A stretch of 64,000 bases of DNA from Meandrina meandrites. Its lineage: Eukaryota; Cnidaria; Anthozoa; Scleractinia; Meandrinidae. The stretch is taken from the NCBI GenBank assembly GCA_963693305.1, contig OY855903.1, forward strand, positions 53,155,650 through 53,219,649, written 5' to 3'. A program made the translations under genes and the position numbers. The notes beneath the pieces are model-generated. The model saw nothing but the letters and a program-made list of their open reading frames with translations. It was not told where the DNA came from and ran no database searches. The first letter of the stretch is position 1. The number at the start of each line of letters is the position of its first letter. Of the stretch, positions 5,801 to 44,818 are shown one piece after another.

Positions 5801-7123
5801 ATGCTCAAGGACAAAAGTGTCATTTAGACCGCTCTGTGATTGAAATCTCCAATGATGATGATGATGACAGTGATGGTGGCACCAACAATGATGGAGATGC
5901 TAACCTTAGTTCTTCCTTTAGCTATCCAGGTATTCATGTATAAAGCTTGATAAAATTTGAACTGTTGGAACTGTATTTGAGATATAATGTCTCCTATTAA
6001 GGTGTTACTATGCTTATCTGGAAAGAAAAGTTTGATGGGGAGGGAAGGCTTATAACTGGAAAATTGCCTGATGCTTAACCGATGAGGCCGTTGGCTGAGT
6101 TGGCTTAAGTCGACAATATTCCGCAAGATTTTGCAGGATAATTGTTTTATTATTCAACAAATTGTCCACAAAAAAATATTTTATAGCTCAAACTTTATGT
6201 GGTTATGTAGCACTTGGCGACTCTTCGGATTCGTCTTGGCAACCTATACATATCACAGGATATCTGTTATGCATGGATGATGGATAACAAGAATGTCTTG
6301 ACCATATTTGGGCATTGTGACAATTTGTTGAATAATAAGAACCTAGATATATACATCTGGGCTTGTAAGTGGAGGGGGGTGGGGGAGGGGACGAAGAGGG
6401 GGGGAGTTCCAATTGGCATTTTTATAAATCTTAGACAAATTTGGACCATACTGAGAACTTCCTGCAGTAGAGTTTGTCACTACTAAAAGAAGGGTTGTAA
6501 CATGTAAACTGTACAGGTATCCTTTGTTTTTTGCAGAGGTTGTCAACATATTTTCTGATGAAGGCATTTTAACTGACAAGGTATTTTGAATATTTACTAG
6601 TGAGTCTCTTAACATGTACAGTACAAGATATATATGAAAGAACCAAATTAATTCTGTTTCATAGTCTACCTGATTATTTGGTATCTATTCTTCTATCAAA
6701 TCAAGTGTCACGTGAACATCATCTTTTCACACACTATGTGATCTTTCCTTGTGAGTATATCTGATCAATAAAATGGCAATTTGTATGAATTGCAGACCTA
6801 TCTTTTACTTGTGTTGTAGGAGTCATCTCTTGCACAGAATGAAGTAGGACCAGGGGAAATAGCAGGTAGAAGCCTTTTTATAGTAATGTGATTTATATTA
6901 CTGTTTCTAGAATTTGAGCTGTTAGTATTCTTTTCTGAGAAAAGTTGTTTAACATTCATCCTGCAATAATAAAGTCTTCAATAATATGTTATGCTCAAAT
7001 AAAATTTCTCTTAAATTATTAAATTATTAAGTTCGGAATTAATTCACTGCTGTTTGTTTATGTTTTTGCCACAGAAAACTGGGACTTAAATGAAAGAGAC
7101 CTTCAGGTAGATTCTTATCAATA

Positions 7124-7154
<31 letters not shown>

Positions 7155-10100: not shown

Positions 10101-13100
10101 GTAAAGCCAAAACCATGCTCATCGCTCTGGCCAATCACAAACGGCACAGACAATCCAGTGAACCAATCAAATGTCGAAGCAAATACATGCAACCGGCACG
10201 AAGCGCGGGAAAACGTGTGTGAGCAAGTCACGACTGGTTTTGATGGGTCTTTGATTTTACTTCTGATTGGTCGAGAAAGTAGCACGAGCCTTTTAAACCA
10301 ATCGCTGAGCATAGTATAGCAAAACCAAAGCAAATGCGAATTACATGTATTTTTCGACATTGAAGTGAAAATTTGCTCTAAACGGAATTTATAAAAACGA
10401 GGATGCGTCATTCTAATAGTGTTGAACAATGATTATTTTTATTACAGACCGAAGTTGGTCCAATTATTCGCCCTGACAGACCTGTTTCGCCTCGTCCGTC
10501 TGTATATTGCTATAACTGTGGTAGTCAAGGTCATTACGGACATGTAAGTATACACTCGTTGCAGAAAAATTACTAATTCCTTTGACTGTGAAAAGGGACA
10601 ACATTAGACATGCCCCCTGACAGAAGTTTGAAATCACCGCAGCAAAAGAGTTTCTTTGGAGAATAAAGCAATTGGCTATATTTCTCGCGTTGACATGAAG
10701 TTTCAATTTCTTCTTTTTTCTGAATCTTAAGGAATGTAGAGAGGAAAATGCAACAAGAAGAAGCGAACTGCCTTTGCCTTTTGTTGTGAACTATGACGGC
10801 TGCCAAATGCCTTCATTTCGCGAGAAAAAGAATTTCGACAAACGAACACCGAAGCTTAGACCGAAAAACAAACGACGGAATCAGCCTTTGTCGAAAGGGT
10901 TCTATGATCAAGCCAGCCAGCAAGATTTTGATACGGACAGCAGGCTATTTCAGCCTCCACCGGAAAAGATACGAAAGATAGATGATGATGCTGATGTTCG
11001 GAGAGGTAGGTGTGACTACGGATCTTCTCGGTGTATTATATTAACAATAATACAATAAGATTAGACAACAAGTCACAAATGACATCAAAAGGAAATATCC
11101 GAATTTGATTGTTTTAATAACACAGAGAACTAAATAACCCTAGTCCTTAGAATGAAAAATCTTGCAACTAATTACGTGTTTTTTCTTTCTTTTGGTTATT
11201 GTAATTTCTTTCGTTTTGATTTTTTACGATTCTGTACTAAGGTAACGCCATCTATGTGGGAATGCCAATAAATTATTTACCGTCAACCGGTTATGCCTTC
11301 CCCCCCCCTCCCCCCACCAACCTACTTCTACAACATCTCACAGAACCCCCTCCAGGTAATTATCTTACTTATTTTACCTCGATAACTCGAACCCCCCGAT
11401 ACTCGAACCTTTTTCGATTTCCGCTGAAGGTTCGACCTATCGGGATTCAACTGTAGTTGTACAAGCCCAGGGCTTATAAACGGCATTTCACGGTATCATA
11501 TTACATGTACATGGTTTCTTGATGATAAGGAAGGTATCCACTTAGTATTAGAACTATTTGTCACTGATTATCCTAAGAAAAAACGTTATACAAAATTCGC
11601 GCCCTTTTGTCTGCTTTCCAAACAGCGAAGCGCATCATGGTGAAGCATATGACTATATCGTTGATGACACGTTTGTTTTTCTCTTCTTGTAGTAACGTTT
11701 CAGGCTGACAGCTACAATACCAGGGAATTTAACTCGCCGTATACAGATCGTACACCCAAGAGGAAAAGGAAAAAGAATCGGCAGAGACAAGAGACAGCAG
11801 GAGGAAACGAGGTATCAATAATTCTGTTAGTGTAACAAATGTCAGTGAAATGGATCTTGAATTGAGTCCCCAGAGCTTGAATTTTACTTTGAATTTATAT
11901 CCGTTCGGGATAGAGGACATAAATATTGCCAACTGTCATATAATAAGACTTGCAGTAAGTTGAAAGAATCCAGTTGAAGTACATGTAATTTTTGTTGAAT
12001 AGAAAAATATACTGTAGCAAGAGATTATGAAATAACAGTGGTGCAGAAAAAAAATAAGAGGGTTGGGGGGGAACTCTCTATATTGGACTATACGGACAGG
12101 CTCCGCCTAAAAGAGGTACCTTTTTGATGAAGTTCATCCCAAGAATATAAAAAAGGTACCCACAAGGTCCATGTGTGGGATACAATGTTGCAACTCATTT
12201 GCATTAACGGCTTACAACCCGACCACATTAGTGTGCGATACCACAGGTATCCCACACGAAAAGGAATAGTCATGTAGTGTATTCGAAAGGGGTAACTCTT
12301 TCAAACACTGTCCATACAAAATCGTAACTATTTTCGGACAACAATGGCATTTAAAGAGGCAAAGGTTTAGACGTCGTACACAATTTTGTTGAGTATCCCT
12401 TCCCAATGGGTGTAAGTTTTAGGTCTTCATTATTTCTTTGTGTTGACCGAACTGAGCTAGCTTGCGCGGTAATTTGACGTAAATGATGATCTTTTTTTCT
12501 TCAGCGTATCGTTGAGATCTTAGACCCCAGTCCCTCCAATGATGGCTTGATCGAGGAACCATATCAATTTAAGAAAAAGAAATCGAAAAAGGTGAGGAGT
12601 TTTTTTGAATACTATCTGTTACCAAAAGCTCGAAAAGGAACATGGATGGAAAAGATCAAATGAAGATCAAAATGGATTACGATAGACGAACTTCTATCAT
12701 TCAGTCTAGGGCGATTATCATTAGTCAGAACTGGTCGGCCAGATCGGTATATTCGAAAACAGGGTGCTTACCATTTGTCAGAACGAGCCGGATGGAATGA
12801 CGATTAAATTGTGTAAGGGTTTTTTCCAAAATCAGCAAACCAACCGAACGAGATGGCACTTACCATTTGGCTTCCTGTTATTGTTTTCCGTTGATGGGAG
12901 ACTTGAACTGGGAAACCGTGCAAATGGTAAGGAAATTTCCGACGTTCCATTCCAAACGGAAAAAGAGGAGTTCCTCTGGAGGTTGTACGCATTCTCCGGA
13001 AAATCACCTTTCCATTTCACTTCGAACCGAAATTTCCGGATTTTTGGCTAAATGGTAAGCACCCCAGAGCTCTGTTGTTAGTCAGATTTGCCCTGTCAAA

Positions 13101-13953
13101 TCAGTCAATGCATTGTTATACACTGTTGTGGTGAAAAAAGCCCATTTCACATTAAAAAGCAGCGGATCAGCCGGCCAGTTCTGACTAATGGTAGGCGCCC
13201 TAAGTTTCCAAGATGAGCTCCCCGTGCTGTAATCTGATGTAGCTATCCGTTTGAAAGAAATGAATTAAATTACATCGCTTTTAGTTCCGGCCGGAAAAGA
13301 AAAAGTTTGTCAGTTTTAAAGTAGCAAGAAAGCGATATATGAAAATCACGGTAGTCACAAAGTAGTGTTTTGCCTGAATTGTTACGTATTTTGTAATTAT
13401 TTGGTGTAAACAGCGAAGGTTCGTCAATTCGCGCTCAGAAATCATTTTCGTTCGTTCTAACCAATTACAGAGTTTTATTGATGCATTCGTGAACGTTTCG
13501 CGCCCCTCTCACTTGTGTGTGTGTATTTGTTTTTCAACACTGTTTATTGACTTACTGATTTTTGACAGCTGTTTTCACTGACTTTGTATAATTTGCTGAC
13601 TGCTTACGCCTCAAGATAGCTATTTTTCATGATTTTTATACTTATCGAGTTTTCCTTTTCTGCAGCGTGGAAAACAACAATGGCAAGTAGGAAACAGTTT
13701 CGACGATAACTTCGACAGCATCGACTTTAATGCGCGAAATGATTCAAAGCACCGAAATGACAGGAGATTTTCTAACCCACATCGGAAGCAAGACTTCAGA
13801 TCATTCGAAGAAAGGCAATTTGATTCAAGAAGAACTTCGTCTAATCCCAGGAGGGGAAACAAGGATTTTACCTCAAACAGAGGATTTCGATTTAATAACG
13901 AACCACGTGGCAAAAAGTCGAAGCCGCAATTTTTGAAGCGGTATACTTTTTGA
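2816..13953 (+). CDS. ZCCHC7: Zinc finger CCHC domain-containing protein 7 (TRAMP complex zinc-knuckle subunit)
   Basis: Coding exons: 2816-2895, 4930-5024, 5756-5929, 6537-6580, 6820-6865, 7075-7106, 8016-8135, 8377-8478, 9171-9242, 9954-9989, 10448-10543, 10732-11005, 11242-11355, 11693-11811, 12505-12591, 13666-13953. All junctions are GT-AG and in phase, giving 592 aa. The N-terminus is acidic, with a YSQVHYA motif like the vertebrate protein. Five zinc knuckles follow at about residues 180-193, 202-215, 220-233, 244-257 and 288-301. Between knuckles 4 and 5 lies RWRQYHL, matching the IWRxYxL motif with which Air1/2 proteins bind the Trf4/PAPD5 poly(A) polymerase. The tail is basic and proline-containing. 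By family knowledge it delivers nuclear RNAs to TRAMP and the exosome. Human ZCCHC7 is of similar length (about 540 aa). Confidence 0.93.
3220..3490. mobile_element. MITE with TACCGTATTTTCTTGA termini (ZCCHC7 intron)
   Basis: The left end TACCGTATTTTCTTGA is inverted at the right end as TCAAGAAAATACAGTA, within about 270 bp that code for nothing. The interior has repeated AATAAACGC-like phrases. Fragments with the related GGGCTTATTTTTGG phrase occur at about 1495-1545, 47695-47735, 53035-53085, 53390-53440 and 55585-55640, so the family is abundant here. A TA target is likely. Confidence 0.7.
4032..4674. mobile_element. TTAA-target MITE with GGTGATTCCACTGA termini
   Basis: The element is bounded by TTAA at 4028-4031 and 4675-4678. 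Termini are GGTGATTCCACTGA and its inverse TCAGTGGAATCACC. TTAA duplications are typical of piggyBac-like and Kolobok-like elements. The host sequence at about 3870-4730 has its own inverted ends (ATACCAGGCTGCATT against AATGCACCCTGGTCTATA), so this looks like an insertion into an older element. A related end (GGGGGAATGACCTTAA) lies at about 29424-29441. Confidence 0.75.
5281..5455 (+). mobile_element. SINE fragment, family C (3' part)
   Basis: Diverged copy of the 3' two thirds of the SINE at 9500-9794 and 50350-50660. It shares GGGCAAGA, CTCTACCCAGG, the AATAGAAATACTCCTAG phrase and the AACCAGGATAAGTT...CTTGGCCTGAT tail. The tRNA-like head is missing. It lies in ZCCHC7 intron 3. Confidence 0.75.
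7131..7328. mobile_element. Short MITE with GTGTGGTTCCAGAAAATATC termini, plus a partial second copy
   Basis: Inverted ends begin GTGTGGTTCCAGAAAATATC and are at least 25 bp long, with a G-rich interior. ATT flanks both sides, a possible 3-bp target duplication. The right-hand ~70 bp recur almost perfectly at 7555-7624, so a truncated duplicate lies about 225 bp downstream. This is ZCCHC7 intron sequence. Confidence 0.75.
7755..7853 (-). mobile_element. tRNA-derived SINE, family B
   Basis: The minus strand reads GGTAGCTCAGTTGGTAG (A-box-like), then GCGGAGGTCATGGGTTCAAA (B-box-like), then a poly-T/A tail. It resembles the copies at 54519-54607 and 60200-60340. The cloverleaf is degenerate, so this is not a functional tRNA gene. 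Confidence 0.75.
8016..10543 (+). CDS. ZCCHC7: ZCCHC7 exons encoding the five CCHC zinc knuckles
   Basis: Five CX2CX4HX4C knuckles read CYNCNEKGHLSQNC, CFLCGGVGHVKRYC, CFNCYEPGHMSKQC, CNRCHVLGHLANEC and CYNCGSQGHYGHEC. All metal ligands are present. Knuckles 3, 4 and 5 are each cut by a phase-0 intron at the same place, directly before the residue preceding the last Cys. Knuckles 1 and 2 are uninterrupted. As I recall it, the third knuckle of the human protein lacks the usual glycine-histidine pair, whereas here it is intact. Confidence 0.93.
8556..8890. repeat. ZCCHC7 intron 9: probable old dispersed repeat
   Basis: Non-coding. CACCATAATCCAATGGTGCACGC near the left end is echoed by GTGCACCATAACTCAATAGCGCA near the right end, which suggests a decayed element. 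No termini or second copy were found in the window. Confidence 0.3.
9500..9794 (-). mobile_element. tRNA-derived SINE, family C, near full length
   Basis: The minus strand starts at about 9794 with GGCGTGGTGGCCTAATGGTT (A box), then GGTTCGAGCCCTGGCC (B box). A body follows with CTCTCTCCACCCAGGTGTAT, AAATGGGTACCGGTG and ACTCCTAGTCGCTTCATGCT, and a tail reading GCTCGTATGCAGACTTTACC. It is very similar to the plus-strand copy at 50350-50660. It lies in ZCCHC7 intron 10. Confidence 0.88.
10108..10335. repeat. Dispersed repeat R1 (ZCCHC7 intron 11)
   Basis: Phrases such as CACAGACAATCCA, GAACCAATCAAA, GAAGCGCGGGAAAAC, CGAGTCACGA/CAAGTCACGA and TTGGTTTT recur in the same order at about 46826-46960. 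Both copies are non-coding. The family is unnamed here. Confidence 0.6.
12709..13200. mobile_element. Outer MITE of a nested pair, TA target
   Basis: TAGGGCG...CATTAGTCAGAACTGG on the left is inverted on the right (CCAGTTCTGACTAATGG...CGCCCTA). TA flanks at 12707-12708 and 13201-13202. It is interrupted by a second element at 12762-13064. It lies in the last intron of ZCCHC7. Confidence 0.8.
12762..13064. mobile_element. Inner MITE with perfect 15-bp inverted ends
   Basis: The left end GGGTGCTTACCATTT is the exact reverse complement of the right end AAATGGTAAGCACCC. The 303-bp element lies wholly within the outer MITE, so it inserted later. Confidence 0.8.
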
Positions 13954-14079
13954 ATTGTGATAGCAGTACGTATTTTTTAATCAGTTTTGGGTGACGATAA
14001 TTGCGCCGGTTCACAATCCCAAACTTCACCTTTGCCATTTCATTTCCAACTCGAAGTTTCGACCCTTCTTACTTAAGAC

Positions 14080-14355
14080 AAAAAGGTAAAGGTAAAGCAA
14101 CTTTATTTATACACGGTTTGTGTTTAAAGCTAGAAGCTTGTGGGGCCGTGTATATGAAACAAATATTAAATAAACATAACATGATTAAAAATCCCAACTG
14201 GCAGGAGGCAGACCAGTTGGCTATTTACAAGTATGACCGAGGATTTGAACTCGGGACAACCGAGAACAAATTCAGATAGCGGTCAGAACGGGACTTGAAC
14301 CAGGGACCTCCGGATTTCAAGTCCGGCGCTCTAACCACTCGGCCATGCTGCCTCC
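14080..14355 (-). mobile_element. tRNA-derived SINE, family A (Ser/Leu-like head)
   Basis: From 14355 the minus strand reads GGAGGCAGCATGGCCGAGTG (A box), a stem with loop CTTGAAA, then CTGGTTCAAGTCCCG (B box). The long body ends in a (TTTACC)n tail near 14080. A long variable arm is lacking and a body is attached, so it is a SINE rather than a tRNA-Ser gene. A truncated relative lies at 44184-44310. Confidence 0.8.
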
Positions 14356-15647
14356 TTGTTGACTGCTGGTTTCACGGGGCATAAACACGAGCATAAGCGG
14401 ATACGAGAATCGAACACACTTATTCTTTTGATGCTGTCCTTGCTAAAACACCGCGACTTAAACATAAACGTATTTTCTTGTAATTTTGTTAATGCTCATG
14501 CCACGGCGATTCTTGGTGAGAACTGCATAAGAAGCCGGAATGTCTTTATTCGCTCATTTTGTGTTTGTGCTTATGCCCAGTGTGAAAAAAGCAAGCTTTT
14601 ATAACAATACATGATTTTCCTTATTCTCACCTCATGCCGGTCTCCTGGTACAACGTAGATGGATTTCCGCCGGGCAGAAATCTGACTGCGATTGCAGGCT
14701 GTCTTGGGAGCTTATTGGATAGTTGTATGTTATTTGTTTTTCTTTTCAAGAAAGAAGACTTATGGTAGTCAAATTTAATCCCTTTTATAAGAATAACTCA
14801 GGTGACTGAGCCAAACTGCAGAGCACTTTTATTAATACATTGCAAAACTGTTCAATAGCTTATCGAAATAAACTTTTTTTACTAGCCAAAGTAGGCGAAT
14901 TTTTCTCTTTTAGTGCCTGAGAATGGACCTGAAAGGCTCGATACCAGAAACGTAGCCCTACAGTGAGAGCCTAGGGTCCCTCTGTCTCCTTCGGCTGCGA
15001 AGGAGACTTAGGGTCTCTTTGATTGGTTGTACGTTGCGCGCGAAATTTCAAAATCGAGCAATGACCAATCAGTGCGTTACACGTAGGTCTGCGTCATCAG
15101 TATGGAATTTCTCATGACAAATCTCGGACGTCTCCGAGCGGCGAAAGAATCCACAATACCGGAAAAGATGGTGGCTGATGCATTTACCTAAAAACGCTTA
15201 ACTCGCATAATTGAACTAATTCTGAAGATTAAAAAGGTTAATCCTAAACACGTTCATAAAAATGCACAGAAAAGCTTTGAAAACTTCAAACCCAGTATGA
15301 ACAATGTTGTAATAACCGGTTCGAATCTCAAAACATGGCTTAGTTTCAATGTGCCCTGTTCGTGTTGGGTTCGCATGGTGCAGCCGCCATGTTCTTTTAG
15401 CCTGCGTAGCAAACGTTCCGCATTTTGGGTGCGCAAAAATTGAGACGAAGGCAAAAAACACCGGGAGGGGGAGGGTATTCCAGTTTTTTTGCTCTCGCCC
15501 CAATTTTTGCGCGGCCAAGAAGCGAGAAGCGGATCGTATCGCGTTCGCGCTCTACGAGAACGCTTGCTATGAAGAAGAACTCTTATAGCCGTTTTTAATA
15601 GCATTTTTCATTAATTAAAAAATGGTGTTCAAGAATTAATTCATTAA

Positions 15648-16684
15648 GGTGGAGTACACCCGATTTTGAGTGAAATTTTAACCCTTAGTATGCTAAATTT
15701 ACTCCAAAAGACACGTTTTTTAACCGTTAAATTGATTTTTTTAGCGCTACGATGCTAAATTTCTCTAAACTTTGCCAGAAATGCATTTTCTTACACTGCA
15801 GTAAGATTTTGAGGAAGATTTCACCTAAAAATGTACAATATTTTACTTTGGCGCATGCGCATAAGCCAAACTTTGAACTTGTTTTTGTTGTTTTTCTTTG
15901 TTGTTTTTTTTTGCCGAACAGTTCTGATTTTTTTTCCTCGTAGCGTTGCTTTTCGTTTTTCTCTGCTTTCTTATTCTCTCTACCTTCTACACCGTACATC
16001 CTTTCTTTTGAACTGAAAAGTTTCGATCTTTAGCAATGAAAAGTTTTGGAAAAGAGACCATGATCAAGTACAGGTATATTGGCCCGTTTTACCACCAATT
16101 TTGCACCCAAAAACTGATCACGTTTTTTCTGATTAGCTCTGTCAGAATGCAGTCAATTGTCAAAATGGACAGTCCTGTGGAAAGATCTATTCAACCGTTT
16201 TAGTTGCATATCCCAAGAATCTGTTGACCTGCAAATTCGTGACGTTACAAGTGGTTGAATGGACATTCCTCCAAATCCCGGAATAATCCGGACTTAGCAT
16301 ATTAAGGGTTAAGAGGTTTAAGGAAGGGATAGAAGAAAGAAAATTATTTTTGAACCACCAACAGACAGTTGACCCCACGCAAGAGCACCCCAGGTTGTCG
16401 GGGGACTGTTTGGGTGTCCATCTACTAATTTTTAACTTCAAATTCTAATTTTAAAATCACATTAAATCTTGAATATTTCTTAAATCTCCAAATTTAACTA
16501 AACCTTTGAGAAAAACTATCTCTTCCCAAACATCTCCAAAAATCACCCAAAAATATACAAAACCCCACTAAACAAAGCTTTGTGAAATGAGCATAGAGTT
16601 TCTGGATTACTCGAAACGCGGACGAGATATTCGCATTAAACCAAGTTTAGCGGTGGAAAAGCAGGCTTCAGGTGTACCCCCGCC
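15648..16684. mobile_element. TTAA MITE (GGYGGGGGTACACC family) split by another TTAA element
   Basis: Ends are GGTGGAGTACACC and GGTGTACCCCCGCC, flanked by TTAA at 15644-15647 and 16685-16688. The two halves match, in inverted order, the uninterrupted 389-bp copy at 61235-61623. The extra ~627 bp is a second element (15682-16308). Confidence 0.85.
15682..16308. mobile_element. TTAA element inserted inside the 15648-16684 MITE
   Basis: Inverted ends are CCCTTAGTATGCTAA and TTAGCATATTAAGGG, flanked by TTAA at 15678-15681 and 16309-16312. The copy at 61235-61623 has a single TTAA at the corresponding place, which serves as an empty site and confirms the insertion. The open frames inside are not recognisable. 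Confidence 0.8.
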
Positions 16685-17926
16685 TTAAAGAACATTAATT
16701 CATTAAGGAATTTATTTTAGAGTCTTAGAGTCTTCATCAAATTCGAAGTGCCACTCCTTCGCATTGCGTTCTGGTTTGCGTGTAAGCTTTTGCCTAGTAT
16801 GAGCCAAACAATTCCAATTGCCATTATCATTTGTTTGCTTTTCAGAGAAGCAGAAATTCTTTTACAGTAAGAACGTTCGATCGTTTTTGTCGATTTTTGT
16901 TTCATTTTTTTTAGCTTCGCGTGAAAACAATGATGAAAATTGTTAAATCCAGTCCACTGCAGTTTACTATTGTTATTTTTACATTAACAGGTTAGTTGGG
17001 CCAGAATTGGCCAATATTAACTGGTACTCGTTGATTCTCGTTCTCGGTGTGTGAGACCAGTCTGAGCCCGCAAATTTTTCTACGAAGTTGCTAAGCAACT
17101 GATCACACCGTTGCGGGCGAACAACTTTCCAGGTACACTTTAGTGCTCTAGCTTATGCTTGATCGGATAACACAAGTTGACAAAAATTTGCCATAAACGA
17201 CACTTCTCTCTTGACTGAGGTAGTATTTTCGACTGACACGAAAGTAGTCGTGTGCATGGAAAACGTTGCTAAAAACCCCTTCGTTTAACTAAGAAATTAA
17301 AAGGTAGTTTATTGAAGTTTAACAATCAGGTAAGTTATTGAGCAATCTCGGTCTCAGAGCTTACTTGGCATTCCTTTCCAAAATGGCGTCATCTTGCAAG
17401 GAAACGCCGAGAAGGCTCTTGGGGTGAGGTGAGTTCCTTTGAGGTCTTTTATAAGGGACTGTGGCGAGGCTACATGTTGTGACGAACTGGTGACGAGTAA
17501 AGAGCCCGAAGATTATACTTAAGGCAAGGCAAGGTAGCCGTAGACTGAACAAGACTTGAATTTATCTTCGACTTTTTCTTCCTGCTTACTTCCTTCCATG
17601 TTCATTGCTTCCTTCCTTCTTCCGTCTCTTTCTCACGGACATCATTCAGAGGTTTCCATGACTGACTTATGACCGAGTTAATTTGCACCCTGAGTTTATT
17701 TACATAGGGCACCCCGACATTTGCAATAATATTTTGACCGATTTGCCTTTCATCGACCGGAAACGAAGTGCAGTTATTTTTCCTAAAATAATTGGATACA
17801 GACCAAGAATGCTGTTAAAAGACCTAGACTTTGACATTACCAAAACATTATTGCTTTACGCTGACGGTGAACTCGTGAGCTAACTACAGCTATAGCACAG
17901 CACGCTCATACACAGATCACGCCAAA

Positions 17927-20900
17927 ATGTTTGGGGATAGAGTTTATCCGCGATTTCTCCTTTATGCATCGGTGCTATTCAGCTGTGGAGCTTCTTCTCT
18001 TGAAGGTATTTCTAGAAACTTCGGTATTTTTCCCTCTGGATGTTACGTAACTTGCAAATTTTACCTACGTTTGTGCATCACTTGCAACTTGTTCGTGTTA
18101 AAAATCTTTTAGATTTCCCGTGACGTGGCGCTCTTGTTAACGTTAAATCAGTGAGCTTTTTTTCCGAGTTAAACACCATGAAAAAAGAGTCAAAAAAGCA
18201 CCAACCCGGATTTGTTGTTTATCGTGCTATGCGCGGAGAACAGTTACATCGCTTTTACTGCTCTCACTCCCACACATATACCCAAAGGAAATGTTTTCAA
18301 GCCACGATCCCCAGAAAGAATACTGTTATAGGCTGAATTTAGAACGACACTAATTAAGGCCGTTAATTAGTAACTATATCGAACAATTATTACATGAACA
18401 GAATTACTGAACCCATTACTGAATTCCTACTGTCATTACTTGATAAATTCTCCCTTCTTTTACATTACTTCAAATTCAAGAAGGCAGGTGATGAGAGTTG
18501 CGGAATTGATCTCATCGAAGACATATTGATCATGAACTAAATTCTTGCATGGAGAATGACAGAGATGTATGAAAACAGTTCGGAGAATTTCGTTGCTTAT
18601 CACAATATGTAAATGGCTAAACGCACGATTTGCTTAAAAGAAGGTAAATTTAACTTTTCGGTAAAATATCGCCATCGATAAACAGAGATCTCTTTATAAA
18701 GAGCGCATTAGTAGTTCAGTATTTCTCAAGAAACTTTGACTCGAACTATGTTTACACGTATCAGAAATGATTGGTCAAAATATCAATTAGAGTTTTTTCC
18801 TTTCCTGACGCTGATGGTAATTTGGACGGAAACTCTTTTCATCAGCTATTTTCAAGCTCTGCGGCTGGAGTTTAAGTTGACCTTAAAAACGGCAGTGGTA
18901 AATCAAAAGTACATCATAAGATAACAACAGTAAGTCATTGCTTTTTCTAAGGCATGCGGAATTTTCAGAAATAGCTGCCATGAATGGCAACTTCCAACCA
19001 GTGTGTCTTGCACATCTGTTCCTTAACAGATGAATTTGATTGAATTTACGTGAGCTCATCCATGGAATATATTTATTTTTACCCCAAGCATGGAAAGGTC
19101 ACGACGCGTTAAACTGAATTCGTTGCCAGCATTGTTGTGAGAATGCTGTCATACTGTTTTTGATCTTTTAAAACTGTTGGGTTTCTATCTAATTATGTTC
19201 TTGGTGTTGAATGATCTTCTAAATAGCCATCAGGAAATGACTGAGCTTGGTTTAGTATCAGGTTGATTACGCATGTGTTGTGCTTGCAAACAATTCCTTA
19301 ATTGGCGCCCAATCTTTCTCGGAATAGTCTCGCTGGCTCTGACCGCCCGCCGGACGTCATGTAAGAAGAAATGGATTTACCGCGCATTAAACGTGGACTC
19401 CTTGATTTTCCCTTAGTATCAATCTCGTTCCCAGAGCCTGCGTTTGACCTGCTGTCGGGAAACGCAACGGCTCTGGGCGATTCAAAAACCGGAACCAGGA
19501 ATTTCTGGTTTCGGTTTGATTCTCCGCGTGCGTCGGTGATTGTGGTTGAAATGAACCATTCTCGTCCCCCCGTGGCCGCGATCCTTCTGGTCTGCGCCAG
19601 GAATCGAGACCTCTGCCTGCTCCCAATTTCTGAGCATGCGCAGAGTACTCGTTCTGTAGTTTTCAGCCAATCAAATTTGTTACATTTGACAATGAGGTAT
19701 TGGACGCGGCCACAGGTCTCGATTCCTGGCGCAGACCAGAAGGATGTAAATGTAAAAAAAAAATGTAAATGTTGTTTATAGTGGTCATGCACTTACCTTA
19801 AAGATAGCTAATTTACAGGCATCGCAGCCTCTGGAGACGAGAATGGAAATGAGATTTGGCCATATTTTTGGCGGGCTTTCAGTCTAGCCCAGAGGTCTCT
19901 GGGGACGAGATTGCCTTAGTATGGGCTACTTCGTTCGTTTGAAATTTGAGTTATTCTCGGGGTTACCTGTGGTATAAAAAAAGCACATAAAGGCATGTTG
20001 GTAAAGTAGACGAAGCATACCACCTCGGGTTTGACGAGAGGTTGTGTCAAAGAACACGTCAAAACAATTAATCAAACGAAAAAGAAAAATGTTTCTTCGT
20101 TCTCTCATCAGAACGACGTTTCATTGACAGCCACGTGACTTGTGCTCAGGACTTCATCCAACTTGTCGTAAAATTGAACTCACACCTCTGGCAAACGCTT
20201 GCGTCCAAGATTGACATGCATCTTAACGACGAACACTGCAAACCATTCTTTGTGAATAGTTCGCATGTCTTCATAAGGACACCGCATTATGGCTGCGGTA
20301 CAAAGTCCGAGGTCACCCGAGATAACGTGATTTTCACCAATACGTTTATTGCGCGAGAGGAGACTGGCGCCGACCAGCAGGTATCGTTTTTCCCGGATGT
20401 AGAAGTTGGTTTTCGTTGCACTTACGACAGAAGGAAAGTACCGCCTGTGACAGGTATGCAATAAATGAGAAGTGAAAAGAAAAGGAATAAATGGATAAAT
20501 GAAGTAAGACGAGTAACTCGGACGTGTAGTGGAGTAATTATTGTTTACGCTCGCGGTTCCTTAATCTTAATCCGTAAGAGTATGTTGCTAATTTAATTTT
20601 TGTTCGCTTCTAAAACACGAGAGACAGCATTTCATCACATTTTCAAACACCGAGAAGAGAGTTGAAAGTACGACGTACAACGGAGTGTTTTTGAATGAAT
20701 TCTTGGTGTATGAAACCGTGACGAAACACCATCTCGATTGTTTGATATACACCTCATTGAAGAAACGTTGACCATATGAAAAGCATAAACCATGAACGAT
20801 ATGACCCAATGGCATTCTCGGTAGACAGCATTGGTAAGCTTAGCTATATTCCACTGATTGATAATCAAGATATTTTCTTTTTTTTTTTGAGAGCCTTAAG

Positions 20901-23900
20901 AGCACGATTTATGCAACTTGTCCATAGGCGTACGGGCCGGGGGGGCTGGGGGGGCTGCAGCCCCCCCCCCCCCCCCCCCCCCCCAAATTTTGGGCAACTG
21001 TTGAGGCCTCAAATGTAATAAAGGTCCTAAGTGTAATAACTTTTGGTCCTAAATGTAATAAAGGTCCTAAGTGTAATAACTTTTGGTCCTAAATGTAATA
21101 AAGGTCCCAAGTGTAATAACGTTTTGCCCTGAATGTAGTAAAGGTCCCAAGTGCAAAAACTTTTGGTCCTAAATGTAATAAGGTTCAGCTCGTGACGTTA
21201 CATTCGGCTAAGGAATCAGACACCCATTTCTTTTTATGCTGATAGTAAAGTGGTTTTACCTAACCCTTGCTAAACTTTCAGATAGTATTACATGCTAATT
21301 CCATTGACTTGTTTTGCTTAGTTTTGACTATTACACACTAGTTGTTAGATGATGTTTCACGGGTTAAGTAAAGAGGACAAGTTATTTCTTTTGTGTAATA
21401 ATAGTTCTTGTTACTCCCGTTAATTCGAGACAGGTCGAAAGGAAGTTGTCGCATTACTCTGAATCTTTGTGTACTCAGTAAATAGACTGTTGAGGCTCCT
21501 AAGTTGTTTGATGAAAATATTAATTATTTTAAGCGCCTGATAAAACTCTAAAATGCATAGACGTATCGAAGCTTCTGCCTCTTTATTAGTTTATTTATAG
21601 GAACTACTGCATGCGATACATTTAAAGTTAAATTTAAAATGGTAGCATTTTTAAACGTACAAGCAAAAATATACAGCCTAGAGTTTAAATGAAACTGAAA
21701 ACTTTGTTTAGTACACATGGGTGGTGAGTGCCGTGACTAAAAATTAGGAGCGTTTGTGCGTGAGGACTCCAAATGAGAATGGCTGACCATATGTATGAGG
21801 CAAAAGGGCAACCTGTACGGAGCATTTCATCCCCTCCATGGTTTATTTACTTCAAGAAAATCAAAACTTGGAAATAAGGGTCTAAGCCTGTGGAACTAAC
21901 AGATAGATCAGTAGTGAGAATAGTAACAAAGGAAAAAAACACAAGAACAAAGTACTTGAGTTAGCATATGCCGGATTGACACTAATAGTAACAATAATAA
22001 CAGTCAGTGTTCAATAAGCAGACATGCTTGTAAGTCCATTGGGTTCTAGGCTGGATAACTACATGTATAACATTTGTAACAAAAATCAACCCTCTACAAA
22101 AAAGTACAATTATGTGTAGATTTACAATGTGGATAATACCGTATACTTAAATGTCTACAAGTGCTATTCTTAAAGAGAGCCAAAGAAGGTTGGGTGGGTA
22201 AGAATTTTTGTGGCAACACTTTGGGTAGCCTGCGTGCCTTCCGTCTCCTACTTCCTTCTTTAAGGTGAGGGGAACGACTATACATAGGCTACGCTTTTGG
22301 GAGGTCAAAGAACTTTGCAGTGAAACTACAGATGCGTAGATAAGACCGCATGGCCTTGATTGACATAAAGGGAGAGCGGCAAGGGGGCTGGCCGGCCCAG
22401 GATAGCACGTCAGATATACTGCCGGGTACAAGGGGTGAATATGACATTTGGACGTAACACAAGAGTGTTTGTCGTGCCAGCATATTTGCGTGACAGATCT
22501 GTTTGTTTGAGTGGATAGCTCAGATCTCTCTTTCATGGTTGTCTTATCGACTTAAATTTATATACATTGTAAACTGGCTTAAATTGTAGACTTAGATATT
22601 CATATGATTGAACTGGTCTAAAATGACATTGGTCAAAATTTACTACTTTTGTTGTTACTATAATTAAGTAAGAGATAATTACTGAGAACGGAAGTAATGA
22701 TCCATATAATTTCATGACACCAAGCTATTACACTTAGGACCTTTATTACATTTAGGACCAAAAGATATTACACTTAGGACCTTTATTACATTTAGGACCA
22801 AAAGTTATTACACTTAGGACCTTTATTACATTTAGGGACATTTATTACATTTGAGGCCTCAACACAACTCAGATTTTTTGGGCAGCAAAAGAAATTTGGG
22901 CAAAGCCAGTTTTAAAAGAACTTTCCATGTTTTTGTTTTTTGAAGAGATAGATATTTTCTATTTTAACCTGAAGTCGGCGTGGTAAAGCCAGTTAAATTC
23001 ACACGAGACAGTGGTTGCCCAGCACGTGATGAGTTTCTGGTTATTAATGTAGTACATATCCTTGCAGTGATACCTGCTACATCGTGTTCAGCAGAACGAT
23101 CATTCAGTGCGTTGCGCAGATTGAGAACGTACCTGAGAAACACCATGCAGCTGACCATGGGGCAACAACGTGTCAGTAATGTTCATCGCACTTATTAACA
23201 TTGAAAGGGAAGATGCCAACTCTGTAGTCAACAATGACATGGATCGTATCATTGATATCTTTGGCCGTCGAAATGACCGAGACAGCTATTTCTTTTAACA
23301 TGTTTTATGAGCTCATATCATAGATTCATTTGTAAGAATAATTTCACATCGTAAGTAGGCCTATGTTAGAGCATCGTATATGACCCTCGTTTCTTTTCGA
23401 CTTTTTCGTAAAAATTTGGGCAACTTGCGAGAATTTTTTGGGCAAATGGTTCACCGCCCCCCTGGTAAAAAATTGCCCGTACGGCTATGAACTTGTCATA
23501 TTATTATGTTTATTCTGTCACAGACAACGATTATTTTTTCCGATTTCCCAGTAACATTTGGGTCGCATCGTTCATGGTTTATGCTTTTCATGGGTCAACG
23601 ATTCTTCAATCAGGTGTATACATGTATTCAATCGAAGCTAAAGCTCAATTAAGATCAGATATCCACACTTTCATCACCACCACACTTCCATCACGGTTTT
23701 GATTAAACTGGATGGAACATATCAAGCACGCGACACAGTGTTTCATAGTATTTTCAATATTTCTTCGAGGTGTTTGGAAATGTGATGAAACACTCTCTTG
23801 AGTGTTTGATATATCTTCTCTATCGAAAGTAAAACTACGGAGAAAACGGAAAAATATGTTACGTACTTTTGGACTTTTGGGCGTCATCCAAACAATAGGC

Positions 23901-26900
23901 AATTCCGAGTTACCCTTTGCCTCGGTTTCAAAACGAGTCTACGTGCAAAACCATTGAAATGAAAATGACTTTGATTTGCATGAGAATGGACGTGAAGGTG
24001 GAACACATTTTCATATGAATGGTTTCGCACGTAGACTCGTTTTGAAACAGAGGCAAAGGGTAACTCGGAAATGGCCTATTTGTTTTTTTTTTTCACTGAC
24101 AATATTCAAAGGAAACCTTTTCGACTTGCTATTTTTTCCAGCACCTCTACAACTTGATAAGCTCCATACAAGTCCCGAGGAGGTCAGGACTTACTGTGGT
24201 TTGCCAGTTGAGCTTAGGTGTACATTCAAATACGGCGCCCATCCCGTACGAGCTGTTATTACTCACGAAGGAAAAACTGTAGCTAACCAGGAAAATGGCA
24301 CTCAAACAGTCACTACTACCGCCGGACGTCTTAGCAAGGAATATGGTTTATATACTTGCCTGGCTGAAGACGCGAATCACGAGAAAATCACATACAACAT
24401 CATGTTGAGACAAATTGGTACGCCGGCCTGTATGTGGTGTAATTATTTGTCATTGTTGGTTTACTGTCGTTTGCAGGGCAATGTTTGGAGCCAAGAGGAA
24501 GGCTCAGAGTGGAATTCTAAGTTTATCCCAATCTTTGGCAGTCGTAATCAGCTTTTGGGTTGCTGTTACGTTTTTTCGTTATTTTCTACCCCAAGAGAAA
24601 TTCGCTGGAGGCACACCGGTAAAAGATAAGATTATCATTCTTTGTTAAAAATGTGGTTAACTTTAGTTTCACATGGTGTTGGTCCAATGTCACTTTACTA
24701 ATGAAATGACGCTAATCACTGCAAGGGATTAATGGGTTATTTTTTAAAAGAACTTTTTTCACGTAGTATCAGCCTTGCTGTATTGTTTGTAATGTGATTT
24801 TTGGCTGATTAGATCTCTTGTAGGTCCTACGTTAGCGGCATTATTGTTTGCGGGCCCTTGCTGTTTTGAGTTGTATTTTAAGTACGTAGAATGCCCTTAC
24901 GACTTATATCTAGTACATCTGTCAGCCCTTAAACTGTGTTTCTTGTTTTCATAGATCCATCATCTATTTCACTTGATGGTAAAAAGATCTCTTGCACGCC
25001 AGATGAAATGCAGCTGACGCTTGACCGTTTGACGTATCCATGGTTACACCCAAAGTACTTTGACATGCATCTGCTAGACGTCAACTGTCGACCTTATCAC
25101 GTGAATTTCACGCACATTATAGTGAAGACTACATACGGACAATGTAAAACGATGACGAAGAATTCAGCTGATAGCGTCATTTATCGCAATATCTTTATGG
25201 CGTTTGTGAGAGCTCAACCCGGAGAACTGGTCACAAGAGTGCCGGATATTCTATTTCCTTTCCAGTGTCGGTTTGATCGCAAGAAAGAGAAGTTGACGTC
25301 GATTCCTTCGATAAGAGATGTGAAGAAAATCATTCCAAAAGGTAATAAAATCAATAAACTGTTTCAAGAAAAAAACAAATGCAGCATTCTGATTGGTTTC
25401 TTCTTATTTCAAACATTGTACAAATGAAAACTGCTCATAAATTTTGGTTCAACTTCTTGGAATTGGATTAATGGTGTGTGAAATGTGTTTAAAATTTTCA
25501 CACGCCTAAACTTGATCGAGTTTGATCGAGTTTCACTTTTATTTCTTTTTACAAGTTTGTGGACCGAGCGACAAATTTTTATTTCAAGGAACGTAAGTTC
25601 TAAAAATACACACATACGGCATTCATTTTCGTTTCTAAGTTTTCAAAATTTCCCTTTGACCGGCTGATGATATGTGAGCAATGCGCTAAAGAAACCAGTA
25701 ACGATCGATGGTCATAACATGTAACGAATTAAATAAAGCATGTTGTGTTTTGTTACAGAGCCGCTGACCGTGGTTAAATCCAAGAGCAGTCCACCCATCG
25801 TTAAAACTTACAAGAAATTTAACGTCCGATTGGTTTGTACGTTTAAGGGCGGAGACGCTCCCATCAACATCACACTGACCAGGAGAGGGAGGAGGTTGAC
25901 TGACGGGGTAGAAGTGAGGGGAAAGGTTTTGTTCGGTGCGGTAAAGACCAATCACTGGGCAGCATTTGGAACATATCAGTGCATTGCAACGGACGCTAAA
26001 GGAAACCAAGTGAAGCATAGAATTAATCTGAAAAAGGCAGGTAAGACACTTGATTAGAGAGCTGGTACCATCGGTATAGGTATCTTTAATATGTCACTAA
26101 TTGTTTTGTATTCTAGTGTATTTTTCTTAGTTTTGGGACTTCTTTTCTTACTTTTACTTTTCAATCATTCTTCAAGCAAATTTGATTCCCGTATCAAGTA
26201 GAAGTTTATTTCTACGCATATCAAGTTGAGCGTATCCAAATTAAAAAAAAATACACGAATATATAAGAGAGTGTTCATTGAAGAGCACAAAAATAAAACA
26301 AGTAAAACTTTCAAAAAACGCTTACTGACCTGTAATGATTTCCTATGGCAAAGCACTGTATTTTACACAAAAGACGAAGTACATGTAGGAAGTGTTACCT
26401 TGACAGCCAGCATGTGACATCATGTAAATGATATCGAACTCTCACCAGGTTGAAAAGATTCTCTGTCGTCAAACAAAAATTTCAGTCAAGTAATTGCTCA
26501 TCTTTGCCACCGTCAGCGATGACATTTTCCTAGACTCTGAAAAACATTTGTAACCAGGTTTAAAATCGATTATGGCGCAGTAGAAGCGAGCGTATGAAAG
26601 TCAAGTTTTAGACAAGAACTATACTATCGTCGACTCGTCGACTCTCGTCTACTGTTATTCTCCTCTTTCCTTAGCCTCAGACGATATGTTTATATTATAT
26701 ATTGTTCAGATATATATTTTTTTTTAGTGAAGTCATGATTTTCTTAAAGTTTTACATCATGTTCATCTTTAGGGCCGCGTGATATGACGTCAGACGGATT
26801 AACAGTGACGTGTAAAAGTCATTACATGGATGTGGCCTTGGACAGACTCGTTTATCCATGGCTAGACCCAGGGACGCTCCACTTGAGTCTTACCCAATCA

Positions 26901-29900
26901 AACTGCACTGCGTACAACGTCACCGATTTCCAAATCAGGATCCAGGCCCCACTCTATGAGTGCGGAACCAAGACACTGTGGAAGAACAAGTTCGTGCTGG
27001 AGTCTCGTAACATATTTATTGCCCGCGTGAAGCGACCGCCTGGATTCCGTGTCATATATCTGCCCGATACGTACTTTCCATTTGGTTGTCGTTATGAAAT
27101 AACTCGGTCAGCTGGAAAAACAGTACTTAAACCACTTGGTAAGTTTCCTTTTTAAGCGTCAGCTTGTATTGCAGTGAATTTAGTGAAGATGATTTTAAAT
27201 ACATCGAAAAATTGAATATAGCTGAAAATGTTGGTATCCTAACCACCCCCCACCCCTCCATCACCTAGCAATTTATAGTTAATTCCTCTGCCTCGTACCT
27301 ACAACATTTCCGTCGAAGTGGTCCAATAATATTACATGTTTTGTTTGTCAAGATTCTTTGACCACTGAAATAAAATTATTTGACATCCTCCCGGTAAATG
27401 ATCCCCTAGGGTAATTTTATGGTCCGCCAATATGTACTTAGTCTGTTGTTTTATTTCTTTCAGTTTGTAATATTTCATTTTTTTTTCTTTCCAATTCTAA
27501 TTAATAACACACCGTGTAAGTGCTTAATAACCTGATATATAGCAAACATTTTAAATAAAGTTTAAATTCCAGTTTAATTCATAAGGAACATGAAATTCAA
27601 CAAACAACTTTGTTGGCTTTCAGTAAGTCAGCGTATAAAAAATTAGAAAGAGAAAAGATCATTAAGATCCTTGCATCTTTTTCCTTTCAGAACCACTTAC
27701 ACTCGACCAGTCAATGTCGACTTCACGCAAAATATTTTCCCCGCTCAACATGGCTGTAAAGTTGAGGTGCACTTTTCATGGAGGTGAGCCCCCAGTACAG
27801 GTCAGCATCATCAGACGCAAGGCGGTGATTGCAAGTGCGCAAGGCAGGACGTTGAGTTTTGTTTTGAAACCACGCTTCCAAGATGGCGGTCGTTATGTGT
27901 GTCAAGCGTCCGATGCCCGCCGAAAGACCGTTAGGCATGTTATCAACTTGGAGGTTCCAGGTAAATAAGTTTAAGCTGTAAAACGATGATGTAGACAGTT
28001 TTAGTTTTCCTCCCGTAAACGTTAAAATCGGGAATAGGTACTGTTTCTCGAATACTTTCCGAAACTTTTTGCGACGAGTTTCCGTATCCCACCACCCAAT
28101 CAGAAAACAGCGAGCATTTAATCAGGTACAGAATTGTACAGTACTATTAATGTTTATCAAATTATTGTTTGTTTGCAACAAGAAAACAAACATGAAGATG
28201 TCACATGTTTAATTAAAGACTTCGTTGGATGCATGTCAATGGCACGAAGTGCGCAACCTGGGCCGGGTCATTCAAAGCACGATTAAGCTAATCCAGGATT
28301 GGGGTAAATTGTGAGTTTGGCTTTATAACTTTTCCGTGAAGTTTTCTGTTAACATTTTCTGGACTCCAGTTTTGACGTCGACTTATCTCAAACTCGACCA
28401 AACATAAGCAATAAAAACACTTTTATACAAGAGAAATTGAACGCTCGATCATCTTTTAATCTTGGGATAGTGTTAATCGGCTTACGAATAACCCGGCCCT
28501 GGTTAATTAACTACCCAAGGGTAGCTAACTTTCGATAGACCGTCCTGGGAGCGCGCGCAAGTAAAATTGCCGAAATCGCAAACCAAAACTGTACATAAAC
28601 CACTTTGACTGAACTTTTTGTTGAACACATCGGGGTCTGGGTTATGCTAAAACAGTTAGAGGGCTCGCTTTTGGTTTCTATCGACTTTGATAGTCGGCTC
28701 AAGGCCTCGTCCCTCGCCAACTACGAGCCTGTAGAAACCGCGAATTGCTGAAATAAAATACATAAAACTTTGTTAACGTGTCGATGCCACATAGCCTGTG
28801 AAAATCCCATCCCGTAGCGCGCGCATGTTTCCCCAATGTTTCCCAGAGTCTCCACACGGGAATCATTGTTTCCAGCGTCAATTTTGTTTCCAAGAAGCAA
28901 AATTTGCTTCTGCTACACGACAGAAACATTTCGTGTTTCCGCGCGGCATGGAAGCATGGCAAAACGAGGAAACAATTACGGAAACATGTTTCTCAAAACA
29001 TGTTTCCTCGTTTTGCCAGGCCTTTACTGCGCACGATTTCTTGCGCCATTAGCGCGCGCACGTAAACAAAATGGCGGCTTTTTTCTATGCAACTTAGTCC
29101 GCGAGAGAAATAAATCGTCGATTTCTCGTAAACGAGTATGGGGACCTATCAATTTTTTCACGTATTTTGGGTGTAACGATCAATCTCTTTCTATAAAATG
29201 AATACAGATCAATTTCTATGATTGAAAAAAAAGATTATCACCGAAAACGTGTACTTTGCCAGTATTTGCAATGGAATTATTAAGGAATTATTAGGTAAAT
29301 ACAAGGTCTTCCCGCTCCTAAACGAATGTGGTGACCCCCCTTTTTTATTTCAAAATTTAAGTTCCCTTTAGGTAATCAACCAATATGCAAAGTTTGGTTG
29401 AAAATCTATGTTCAGTTCTAGTTCGGGGGAATGACCTTAAGTTTTCGCTGATCTAACGTCTGGCCGGGATGATTTTCCCCACAATTTAGGCCCAACATAA
29501 CGCAAAGTATACTTACCATATGTTACCGTATTATAGCTAGGAGTGGAGAAGTCTGGTTGTCGTAAAATGACAAATGATGATATTTTCTTTGCAGTCAATG
29601 GTGTTGTCTTTGGCAAAGGAGCAGCAGTCATTGAATGCGGCTCACGAATTACCACCATCACTTTAGACCGCGGGAAGTTCCCCTGGTTTAACCCAGAGCG
29701 CATGCGCATGCATCTCAACGATCCAAGCTGTCGACCGTCCTATGTTACCACTGCGCATGTCAGTTTTAAAATGCCGCTGGGTGGTTGTGGAAGCAGGCAC
29801 ATAACGTCGCCAAGGAAAGTAATATTCACCAACCGCGTGTACATTGTCGAGAAGGGTTACCATGGTTACAAAGAGAAGGAAATGAAGACCTTAATGGAGA

Positions 29901-29974
29901 TTCACTTTCTTTGTAAATACAGACGGATTGGCTTCCTGCGTGAAAGCATCATCCAAAAGAAGCGTCTGTTGTGA
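17927..29974 (+). CDS. Secreted protein of alternating ZP-N and Ig-like domains
   Basis: Coding exons: 17927-18005, 20112-20453, 24142-24417, 24955-25341, 25759-26040, 26773-27138, 27691-27960, 29595-29974, about 793 aa. All seven introns are phase 1 and GT-AG. The ATG (context GCCAAAATG) opens a signal peptide (FLLYASVLFSCGASS). One domain per exon follows: ZP-N 27-140, Ig 141-232, ZP-N 233-361, Ig 362-455, ZP-N 456-577, Ig 578-667, ZP-N 668-793. Each ZP-N has the four family cysteines, with CGT or a variant at the third. There is no ZP-C, furin site, GPI signal or membrane segment, and the C-terminus is a short basic tail. ZP-N modules mediate polymerisation and gamete or matrix recognition in known proteins. 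The role here is unknown; a matrix or egg-coat component is a guess. Confidence 0.85.
19582..19743. repeat. Inverted repeat in ZP-N/Ig gene intron 1
   Basis: About 30 bp beginning CCTTCTGGTCTGCGCCAGGA at 19582 are inverted at 19712-19743. The 98-bp loop contains no gene. It forms part of a larger repeat-rich stretch (19400-19920) with CTCGTTCCCAGAG-like phrases. An open frame of 136 codons here is repeat-derived. Confidence 0.6.
20112..20453 (+). CDS. Exon 2: ZP-N domain 1
   Basis: Cysteines lie in VTC, EHC, YGCGT and FRC, with MHLND before the second Cys and NVIFTNTFIA after the third. This is the classic ZP-N pattern (L.D..C, CGT, I.Y.N). The exon joins a phase-1 signal-peptide exon. Confidence 0.88.
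20923..23489 (+). mobile_element. hAT-superfamily DNA transposon, decayed
   Basis: Termini CATAGGCGTACGGGC and GCCCGTACGGCTATG are inverted. The element is flanked by a perfect 8-bp duplication AACTTGTC at 20915-20922 and 23490-23497, the hAT hallmark. The open frame at 22980-23198 carries the C-terminal hAT dimerisation motif (ATSCSAERSFSALRRLRTYL). The rest of the transposase is missing and a second element is inserted at 20999-22864. Confidence 0.9.
20999..22864. mobile_element. Inner TIR element inside the hAT, with tandem subterminal repeats
   Basis: Both ends start TGTTGAGGCCTCAAATGTAA and continue as inverted tandem arrays of a ~38-bp unit (GGTCCTAAGTGTAATAAC, TTTTGGTCCTAAATGTAATA). 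These occupy 21003-21182 and 22727-22860. A short CAAC duplication flanks it. No transposase is visible inside. Confidence 0.65.
23894..24080. mobile_element. MITE with ~62-bp inverted arms
   Basis: AATAGGC(A/C)ATT, GAGTTACCCTTTGCCTC and TTTTGAAAC/GTTTCAAAACGAGTCTACGTG are mirrored between 23894-23958 and about 24018-24080. Only about 60 bp separate it from the acceptor of exon 3 at 24141. Confidence 0.75.
24142..24417 (+). CDS. Exon 3: Ig-like domain 1
   Basis: I-set-like strand pattern: VELRC for the B-strand Cys and GLYTCLAEDA for the F-strand Cys. The core Trp normally found 10-15 residues after the first Cys is absent (VRAVITHEGK). An additional Cys (TYCG) precedes the B strand, which is not seen in Ig 2 or Ig 3. 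Confidence 0.8.
24955..25341 (+). CDS. Exon 4: ZP-N domain 2
   Basis: Cysteines lie in ISC, VNC, GQC and FQC, with LTLDRLTYPWL and MHLLDVNCRP as in the later copies. The third Cys reads CKT rather than the usual CGT. A 20-residue linker containing IIPKG follows the domain. Confidence 0.85.
25759..26040 (+). CDS. Exon 5: Ig-like domain 2
   Basis: VRLVC and GTYQCIATDAKGN give the two core cysteines. The Trp position is occupied by a hydrophobic residue (INITLTRRGR). The GTYQC motif is typical of I-set Ig domains. Confidence 0.82.
26773..27138 (+). CDS. Exon 6: ZP-N domain 3
   Basis: Cysteines lie in VTC, SNC, YECGT and FGC. The shared phrase VALDRLVYPWLDP marks it as a close duplicate of ZP-N 2 and ZP-N 4. 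N-x-S/T sites flank the second Cys. Confidence 0.86.
27691..27960 (+). CDS. Exon 7: Ig-like domain 3
   Basis: VKLRC and GRYVCQASDARRK give the two core cysteines. The core Trp is again absent (VQVSIIRRK). The opening EPLTLDQ parallels EPLTVVK of Ig 2, supporting a tandem ZP-N/Ig unit duplication. Confidence 0.82.
28513..28745. repeat. Dispersed repeat R2 (ZP-N/Ig gene intron 7)
   Basis: Phrases CTTTTTGTTGAACA, TCGG(G)GTCTGGGTTA, TATGCTAAAACA and CCTCGCCAAC recur in the same order at about 46288-46625. Both copies are non-coding. Confidence 0.6.
28956..29020. repeat. Palindromic GTTTC-rich hairpin
   Basis: GGCAAAACGAGGAAAC is mirrored by GTTTCCTCGTTTTGCC, with a nested GAAACATGTTT / AAACATGTTTC pair. 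It sits inside a GTTTCC-rich stretch (28820-29020) that looks like a short non-autonomous element. Confidence 0.6.
29595..29974 (+). CDS. Exon 8: ZP-N domain 4 and C-terminus
   Basis: Cysteines lie in IEC, PSC, GGCGS and FLC, with TLDRGKFPWFNP and MHLNDPSCRP. After the last Cys a basic tail (QKKRLL) ends at TGA 29972-29974. Nothing resembling a ZP-C domain or transmembrane helix follows in this exon. Confidence 0.86.
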
Positions 29975-44300: not shown

Positions 44301-44818
44301 CCCGACCTCCAAATATGTTCTATTGAAGAGTCGGTGAAACGAAAGAATGCAGACCTGGCAGAGTTTTAATTTTAATCAATCAATCAATCAATCAATCAAC
44401 CAATCAATCGATCAATCAATCAATTATCTAATTTTCCCGAAAAGGATCAGGGACTTCAGCGAAAATTTCCAGTGGGAGGTACGCTGAAAATTTCATGTCA
44501 CCCCGCTCCGATATTTCGAGAAAAAAAAATAGGGAATGATGTGAAGTCTAGTGTTAATACAACGCCTGCCTTTCTCATCACATTGTTATGATCTTCTTTC
44601 AGAATTCAAGTTTGCATTTGATAAGTACAGCAACCGAAAGATCGACAGCTTAGGTGTGCAATACGACTACTTTTCTGTTATGCACTACGGTGCAAAAGCG
44701 TTTTCCAAAAACGGTCAACCGACCATAGTGGCACGGCTGTCGTCCGTCAAGACGTTTGGAAACACACATCTGAGTGCGCTCGACATCAAACAAGCAAATC
44801 TCTTATACAAGTGCCCAG
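38320..44818 (+). CDS. Exons 1-5: signal peptide, propeptide and astacin catalytic domain
   Basis: The ATG at 38320 starts a hydrophobic leader ([16 protein letters not shown]). The propeptide has RLWQVD at 52-56, where astacins usually carry FxGD, whose Asp blocks the zinc. The catalytic domain starts near [14 protein letters not shown] (76-89). The zinc-binding HELGH is at 165-169, the third His at 175, NRPDRD follows, and the Met-turn SVMHY is at 220-224. All catalytic residues are present, so it should be active. Propeptide removal is likely by cleavage near R76-R78. Confidence 0.92.

Follow-up and report, generated by a model that had tools for sequence, protein, structure and literature searches.

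A stony-coral gene for a protein of alternating ZP-N and Ig-like domains with no detectable ZP-C

In 64,000 nt of the stony coral Meandrina meandrites (contig OY855903.1, positions 53,155,650 to 53,219,649 of the forward strand; called the window below, with all positions counted within it), we found a gene whose product consists of a signal-like peptide followed by ZP-N, immunoglobulin-like (Ig), ZP-N, Ig, ZP-N, Ig, and ZP-N domains and then a stop codon. This is a new architecture made of known domains. ZP-N is mostly discussed together with ZP-C as one polymer module. A conserved coral protein that repeats it with ordinary Ig domains opens the question of how ZP-N functions when ZP-C is missing, and does so in animals whose extracellular matrices build the reef skeleton.

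RESULTS

One domain per exon in a 793-aa open frame

The gene comprises eight plus-strand exons between 17927 and 29974, a span of 12 kb. Reading the splice sites showed seven phase-1 introns, each GT..AG; once joined, the exons form an open frame of 2382 nt, encoding 793 aa. One domain per exon with phase-1 introns throughout had been claimed in an earlier reading of this DNA, the original prediction, and this claim is fully borne out. Exon 1 (17927 to 18005) carries the start codon, a signal-like peptide of 26 aa, and a phase-1 donor; its assignment draws on the splice sites and on similarity to relatives in Oculina (P0001, with which it has the junction in common; 69% identity) and Stylophora (P0003; 32%), the signal peptide being called from its look and this similarity rather than with a predictor. 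The four ZP-N domains are encoded by exons 2 (20112 to 20453), 4 (24955 to 25341), 6 (26773 to 27138), and 8 (29595 to 29974), and the three Ig domains by exons 3 (24142 to 24417), 5 (25759 to 26040), and 7 (27691 to 27960). Exon 8 continues beyond its ZP-N into a basic tail that runs to KKRLL, followed by the TGA stop codon at 29972 to 29974.

Intron 2 contains two minisatellite arrays of 40-bp units (21011 to 21181 and 22722 to 22836), which are apparently mutual reverse complements. A nearby frame (22968 to 23198) resembles a hAT transposase by eye, and this intron may therefore contain a transposon.

Profiles, cysteines, and modeled structure identify both domain types

Searched against Pfam, the whole chain gave four ZP-N stretches with PF23344 (E 3.1e-42, 143.4 bits) and three stretches each with Ig_2 (E 2.8e-16; 59.9 bits versus a cut-off of 27) and Ig_3 (E 2.5e-13; 50.7 bits versus 30). 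Taken singly, all four ZP-N exons pass the Pfam cut-off for PF23344 (34.7 to 46.9 bits versus 24.7), with E values from 3.7e-12 to 2.2e-08, among them 2.3e-11 for exon 2, 2.2e-08 for exon 4, and 1.8e-08 for exon 6. Best E values for the single Ig exons, from first to third, were 0.016 (Ig_3), 4.4e-05, and 1.5e-07 (Ig_2); exon 7 is the sole Ig exon to pass a cut-off by itself. Ig1, weak in isolation, is found at 1.2e-12 with a profile built from Ig2 and Ig3. Leave-one-out profiles of this kind, built from the window exons, recovered every left-out ZP-N at E ≤3.6e-17 and every left-out Ig at E ≤1.2e-12. Searched at E up to 10, the same profiles revealed no further such domain among the stop-to-stop frames of the 64 kb in six frames. 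In a control with 10 shuffled windows for each family (2-base-block shuffle), no match of the full profiles fell below 1e-3.

Across the window protein and its relatives, the four ZP-N cysteines are kept in 31, 32, 32, and 32 of 32 copies, a count that omits 5 of 37 copies as absent or truncated; P0002 begins inside its first ZP-N and is without the first cysteine. The ordinary Ig cysteine pair is kept in all 28 Ig copies, and the spliced chain thus combines the profile match and the cysteine pair of the Ig superfamily. Four ZP-N domains alternating with three Ig domains, as predicted for the window, were found with Pfam on both the exons and the spliced chain. An artifact or chance origin of the array was considered and is ruled out by the open phase-1 splicing, the leave-one-out profiles, the shuffles, and the relatives in other corals.

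The structure check that had been suggested was carried out on ZP-N2. The best of five AlphaFold2 models (pLDDT 77.0) retrieved nothing but ZP proteins in its top 41 Foldseek rows, with E ≤0.001 in 19 of these, and its matches to the ZP-N of ZP3 and uromodulin suggest a ZP-N fold for this exon. By its best structural rows, the modeled domain is more like the ZP-N of polymerization modules than that of isolated repeats. On the Ig side, Ig2 of the Stylophora relative structurally matches the Ig domains of receptor phosphatases, in a list that cannot exclude ZP-C. LAR and other receptor phosphatases have this Ig fold in common with Stylophora Ig2; they are membrane bound and, to our knowledge, contain no ZP-N.

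No ZP-C and no membrane anchor in the chain

The Pfam search of the spliced chain, at E up to 1, yielded no ZP-C, the only ZP-family matches being ZP-N and a sub-cut-off Ig_ZP2_N; the library model covering ZP-C is PF00100. Likewise, no ZP-C or anchor exon was detected at E up to 0.1 in the three plus-strand frames over 15 kb downstream (to ~44.97 kb; each stop read as X), a scan whose reach excludes the minus strand and transmembrane exons that have no Pfam model. An astacin domain alone surfaced there, so the method does detect exons. By simple hydropathy, the chain has no transmembrane or glycosylphosphatidylinositol (GPI)-like stretch, the top 19-residue window scoring 1.21 (last 60 residues, 0.34). 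The motif RVKR at residue 540 falls within ZP-N3. Thus, we found neither the ZP-N plus ZP-C of a ZP module nor a C-terminal anchor after a cleavage site, and the predicted absence of ZP-C holds for both chain and downstream sequence. Because all eight long relatives end alike, no downstream ZP-C exon is seen, and the C-terminal end is not hydrophobic, the chain is very likely complete and soluble. Together with the signal-like exon, the lack of a membrane-anchoring stretch indicates that the protein is probably secreted, as had been proposed.

The array is old and conserved in stony corals

A search of 5.8 billion proteins yielded eight long relatives (P0001 to P0008) and five short pieces. 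The long relatives include Oculina patagonica ACROYT_G016078 (P0001; 1007 aa, from a 64-Mb contig), Stylophora pistillata LOC111323825 (P0003; 789 aa), and 655-aa proteins of Porites lutea and P. harrisoni. P0002, P0004, P0005, and P0006 are uninterrupted frames of 669 to 744 aa on contigs of 2.4 to 3.6 kb, which we take to be spliced transcripts because the window gene is so much longer. In all eight, only a short tail follows the same final ZP-N before the protein ends. The Oculina, Stylophora, and Porites proteins agree with the window protein in domains, order, and end, and would be orthologs or close family members; the search for the same domain order in other proteomes, recommended in the original prediction, was therefore successful for Oculina and Stylophora and, minus ZP-N2, for Porites.

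Strict alternation, while true of the window, is not universal: both Porites models are without the second ZP-N, leaving two adjoining Ig domains, and one of them is labeled isoform X2. P0005 and P0006 begin at or close to Ig1. Since symmetric phase-1 exons can be skipped, alternative splicing may change how many ZP-N domains a chain has. The Oculina protein has five ZP-N, with an extra Ig2-ZP-N3 pair in which 209 of 216 residues are identical, suggesting that Ig and ZP-N were recently duplicated (or homogenized) as a unit. This extra pair shows that phase-1 exon units are still multiplying in an extracellular protein.

Trees built from 32 ZP-N and from 28 Ig copies sort the copies by their position in the chain (splits of 0.974 to 0.999 for ZP-N and 0.951 to 0.990 for Ig), and the array is hence old. 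The domains differ fairly little in their identity to the window (56 to 67% in Stylophora, 77 to 91% in Oculina). According to the NCBI taxonomy, the gene is held by two suborders, Vacatina (Oculina, Stylophora) and Refertina (Porites), and so predates their split, given vertical descent. Note that a restriction to stony corals is a statement on the named matches; diverged relatives may escape such searches. The short pieces P0012 and P0013 run past the position of the window stop, with W there after KRLL or RRLL, which probably reflects table-4 translation. Neither P0003 nor P0001 matched any entry of NCBIfam, a library for bacteria and archaea.

The named database records are titled only "uncharacterized" or "hypothetical." In the open-licence literature, we found no description of the ZP-N/Ig architecture, unfamiliar also to the original prediction, or of LOC111323825; none of the coral and anemone ZP-domain genes met there is shown to be the window gene.

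A strongly basic chain

The isoelectric point lies between 9.57 and 10.07 in all nine sequences. In the eight sequences tabulated for net charge (Oculina left out), Ig2 carries +14 to +17, with +14 in the window, and ZP-N4 carries +7 to +14. Potential N-glycosylation sites, called from the N-x-S/T motif, number 6 in the window protein and, by a slightly stricter pattern, 6 to 10 in the eight relatives.

DISCUSSION

Secreted ZP-N proteins without ZP-C are not unprecedented, and the list of known ZP kinds in the original prediction was incomplete in omitting PLAC1, Oosp1-3, Papillote, and CG16798 (PMC1479692). The window protein resembles these in that no ZP-C was found; its own secretion is predicted from the signal-like exon by eye and by similarity. 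It differs in having four ZP-N, whereas the table in PMC1479692 lists one ZP-N match for each of them and no ZP-N/Ig repeat. Among coral extracellular proteins, an Acropora skeletal-matrix protein also has ZP homology, yet its ZP domain is followed by a furin-type site and a transmembrane segment (PMC4890752).

We tentatively favor, at somewhat less than an even chance, the view that this strongly basic and probably N-glycosylated chain is a secreted protein of the stony-coral extracellular matrix, or an adhesion protein, and acts as a multivalent linker, a function that we infer from the observed domain chain, its conservation, its charge, and the duplication of one Ig-ZP-N pair. The ZP-N domains may serve as sticky units that pair edge to edge with ZP-N, either in further copies of the protein or in ZP-module proteins of the coral, while the Ig domains would space them and offer a second kind of binding surface. 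Polyanions, among them acidic proteins of the skeletal matrix, mucus, and glycosaminoglycans, would retain the chain through its basic middle and end, above all Ig2 and ZP-N4. Since each chain has three to five ZP-N, the product would be a linker rather than a subunit of a ZP filament. Consistent with this proposal are the signal-like N-terminal end, the absence of a transmembrane or GPI-like stretch by hydropathy, the N-x-S/T sites, the cysteines, the modeled ZP-N fold, the isoelectric point, and the age of the array; in addition, a maltose-binding protein fusion of the ZP3 ZP-N forms filaments (PMC1479692).

Several points weigh against it. PMC7737619 argues that native filaments are not formed by ZP-N when ZP-C is missing. 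The other four AlphaFold2 models of ZP-N2 are not confident (pLDDT 62.5, 43.3, 38.9, and 35.9), the number of N-x-S/T sites varies, and the basic charge is absent from ZP-N1 (-1) and Ig1 (0) of the window. Our searches, which did not extend to proteome tables, turned up no site of expression, no partner, and no evidence at the protein level. Finally, domains like these prompt a matrix assignment by default, which may be mistaken.

An egg-surface or gamete-recognition protein, whose ZP-N would bind sperm ligands as do those of ZP2 and the VERL repeats, is a possible but unlikely alternative. Like VERL and the N-terminal region of ZP2, the window protein has several ZP-N per chain; however, we know of no Ig between the repeats of those arrays, while here an Ig separates every two ZP-N, in place of adjacent ZP-N ahead of a module. 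Downstream, the same strand carries an astacin-type protease gene, and ovastacin, of the astacin family, reportedly cleaves ZP2, which we count in favor of a gamete role. This proximity of astacin and ZP-N recalls the ovastacin/ZP2 pair and may be chance. The predicted fold of ZP-N2 would also fit, and in abalone, ZP-N motifs are sufficient to bind sperm lysin (PMC3567151). Nevertheless, the 22 repeats of VERL stand ahead of a ZP module (PMC11673550), none of which was found in the window chain, and the ZP-N of VERL and ZP2 give lower structural matches to the ZP-N2 model.

We consider it rather improbable that the protein is secreted to recognize microbes or algal symbionts, as an Ig/ZP-N analog of hemolin or of bacteria-trapping uromodulin. 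A secreted, strongly basic multi-Ig chain would suit such a task, hemolin (1bih) appears among the whole-chain Foldseek rows, albeit weakly (TM 0.12 and 0.21), and bacteria are captured by sheets of uromodulin filaments (PMC7737619). However, no domain stands out as diversified, the window holds no other ZP-N/Ig domain of this kind, and at E up to 1 the chain has no lectin or other recognized microbe-binding domain.

Improbable, too, and more speculative, is a soluble multivalent regulator of ZP filaments, whose ZP-N units might dock on the ZP-C ends of coral ZP-module proteins to cap or cross-link filaments. Since the modeled ZP-N is nearer to that of polymerization modules, several such units per chain could dock in this manner; if so, a partner with ZP-N only would control ZP matrix assembly, with the Ig spacing setting the mesh.

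The original prediction had further suggested that each Ig replaces ZP-C, so that the chain mimics ZP-N/ZP-C polymer units. The ZP-C fold is indeed Ig-like, ZP-N is followed by Ig three times over, and one of the ZP-N-to-Ig linkers (~24 residues) falls inside the 22 to 26 residues given for ZP modules (PMC7737619). However, the other two linkers measure ~11 and ~16 residues, two Ig domains adjoin in Porites, and the Ig exons match the ordinary families Ig_2 and Ig_3, with the usual cysteine pair and no ZP-C match. ZP3 and uromodulin do have ZP-C, and the published mechanism ties uromodulin filaments to real ZP-C, whose strand exchange it requires (PMC7737619). We therefore regard this mimicry as very improbable and do not uphold the claim. 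A soluble growth-factor trap or co-receptor-like protein, akin to betaglycan or endoglin, seems just as remote.

Other features of the window

Downstream of the ZP-N/Ig gene, the plus strand carries a multi-domain gene or genes (43993 to 55524) with astacin protease exons (best stretch, 43993 to 44232), TSP1 pieces (47142 to 47291 and 49820 to 49972), CUB pieces (50747 to 50896, 51474 to 51668, and 52648 to 52917), and C-type lectin pieces (53948 to 54124 and 55372 to 55524). Frames resembling LINE-type reverse transcriptases by eye lie at 3 to 1458 (plus strand) and 59274 to 59738 (minus strand). A weak zinc-knuckle match (PF00098, E 0.00021) at 8079 to 8129 on the plus strand, from a scan of one frame of 3000 to 17997, is perhaps a retroelement remnant. 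On the minus strand, 1585 to 2244 holds an acidic open frame of 220 aa.
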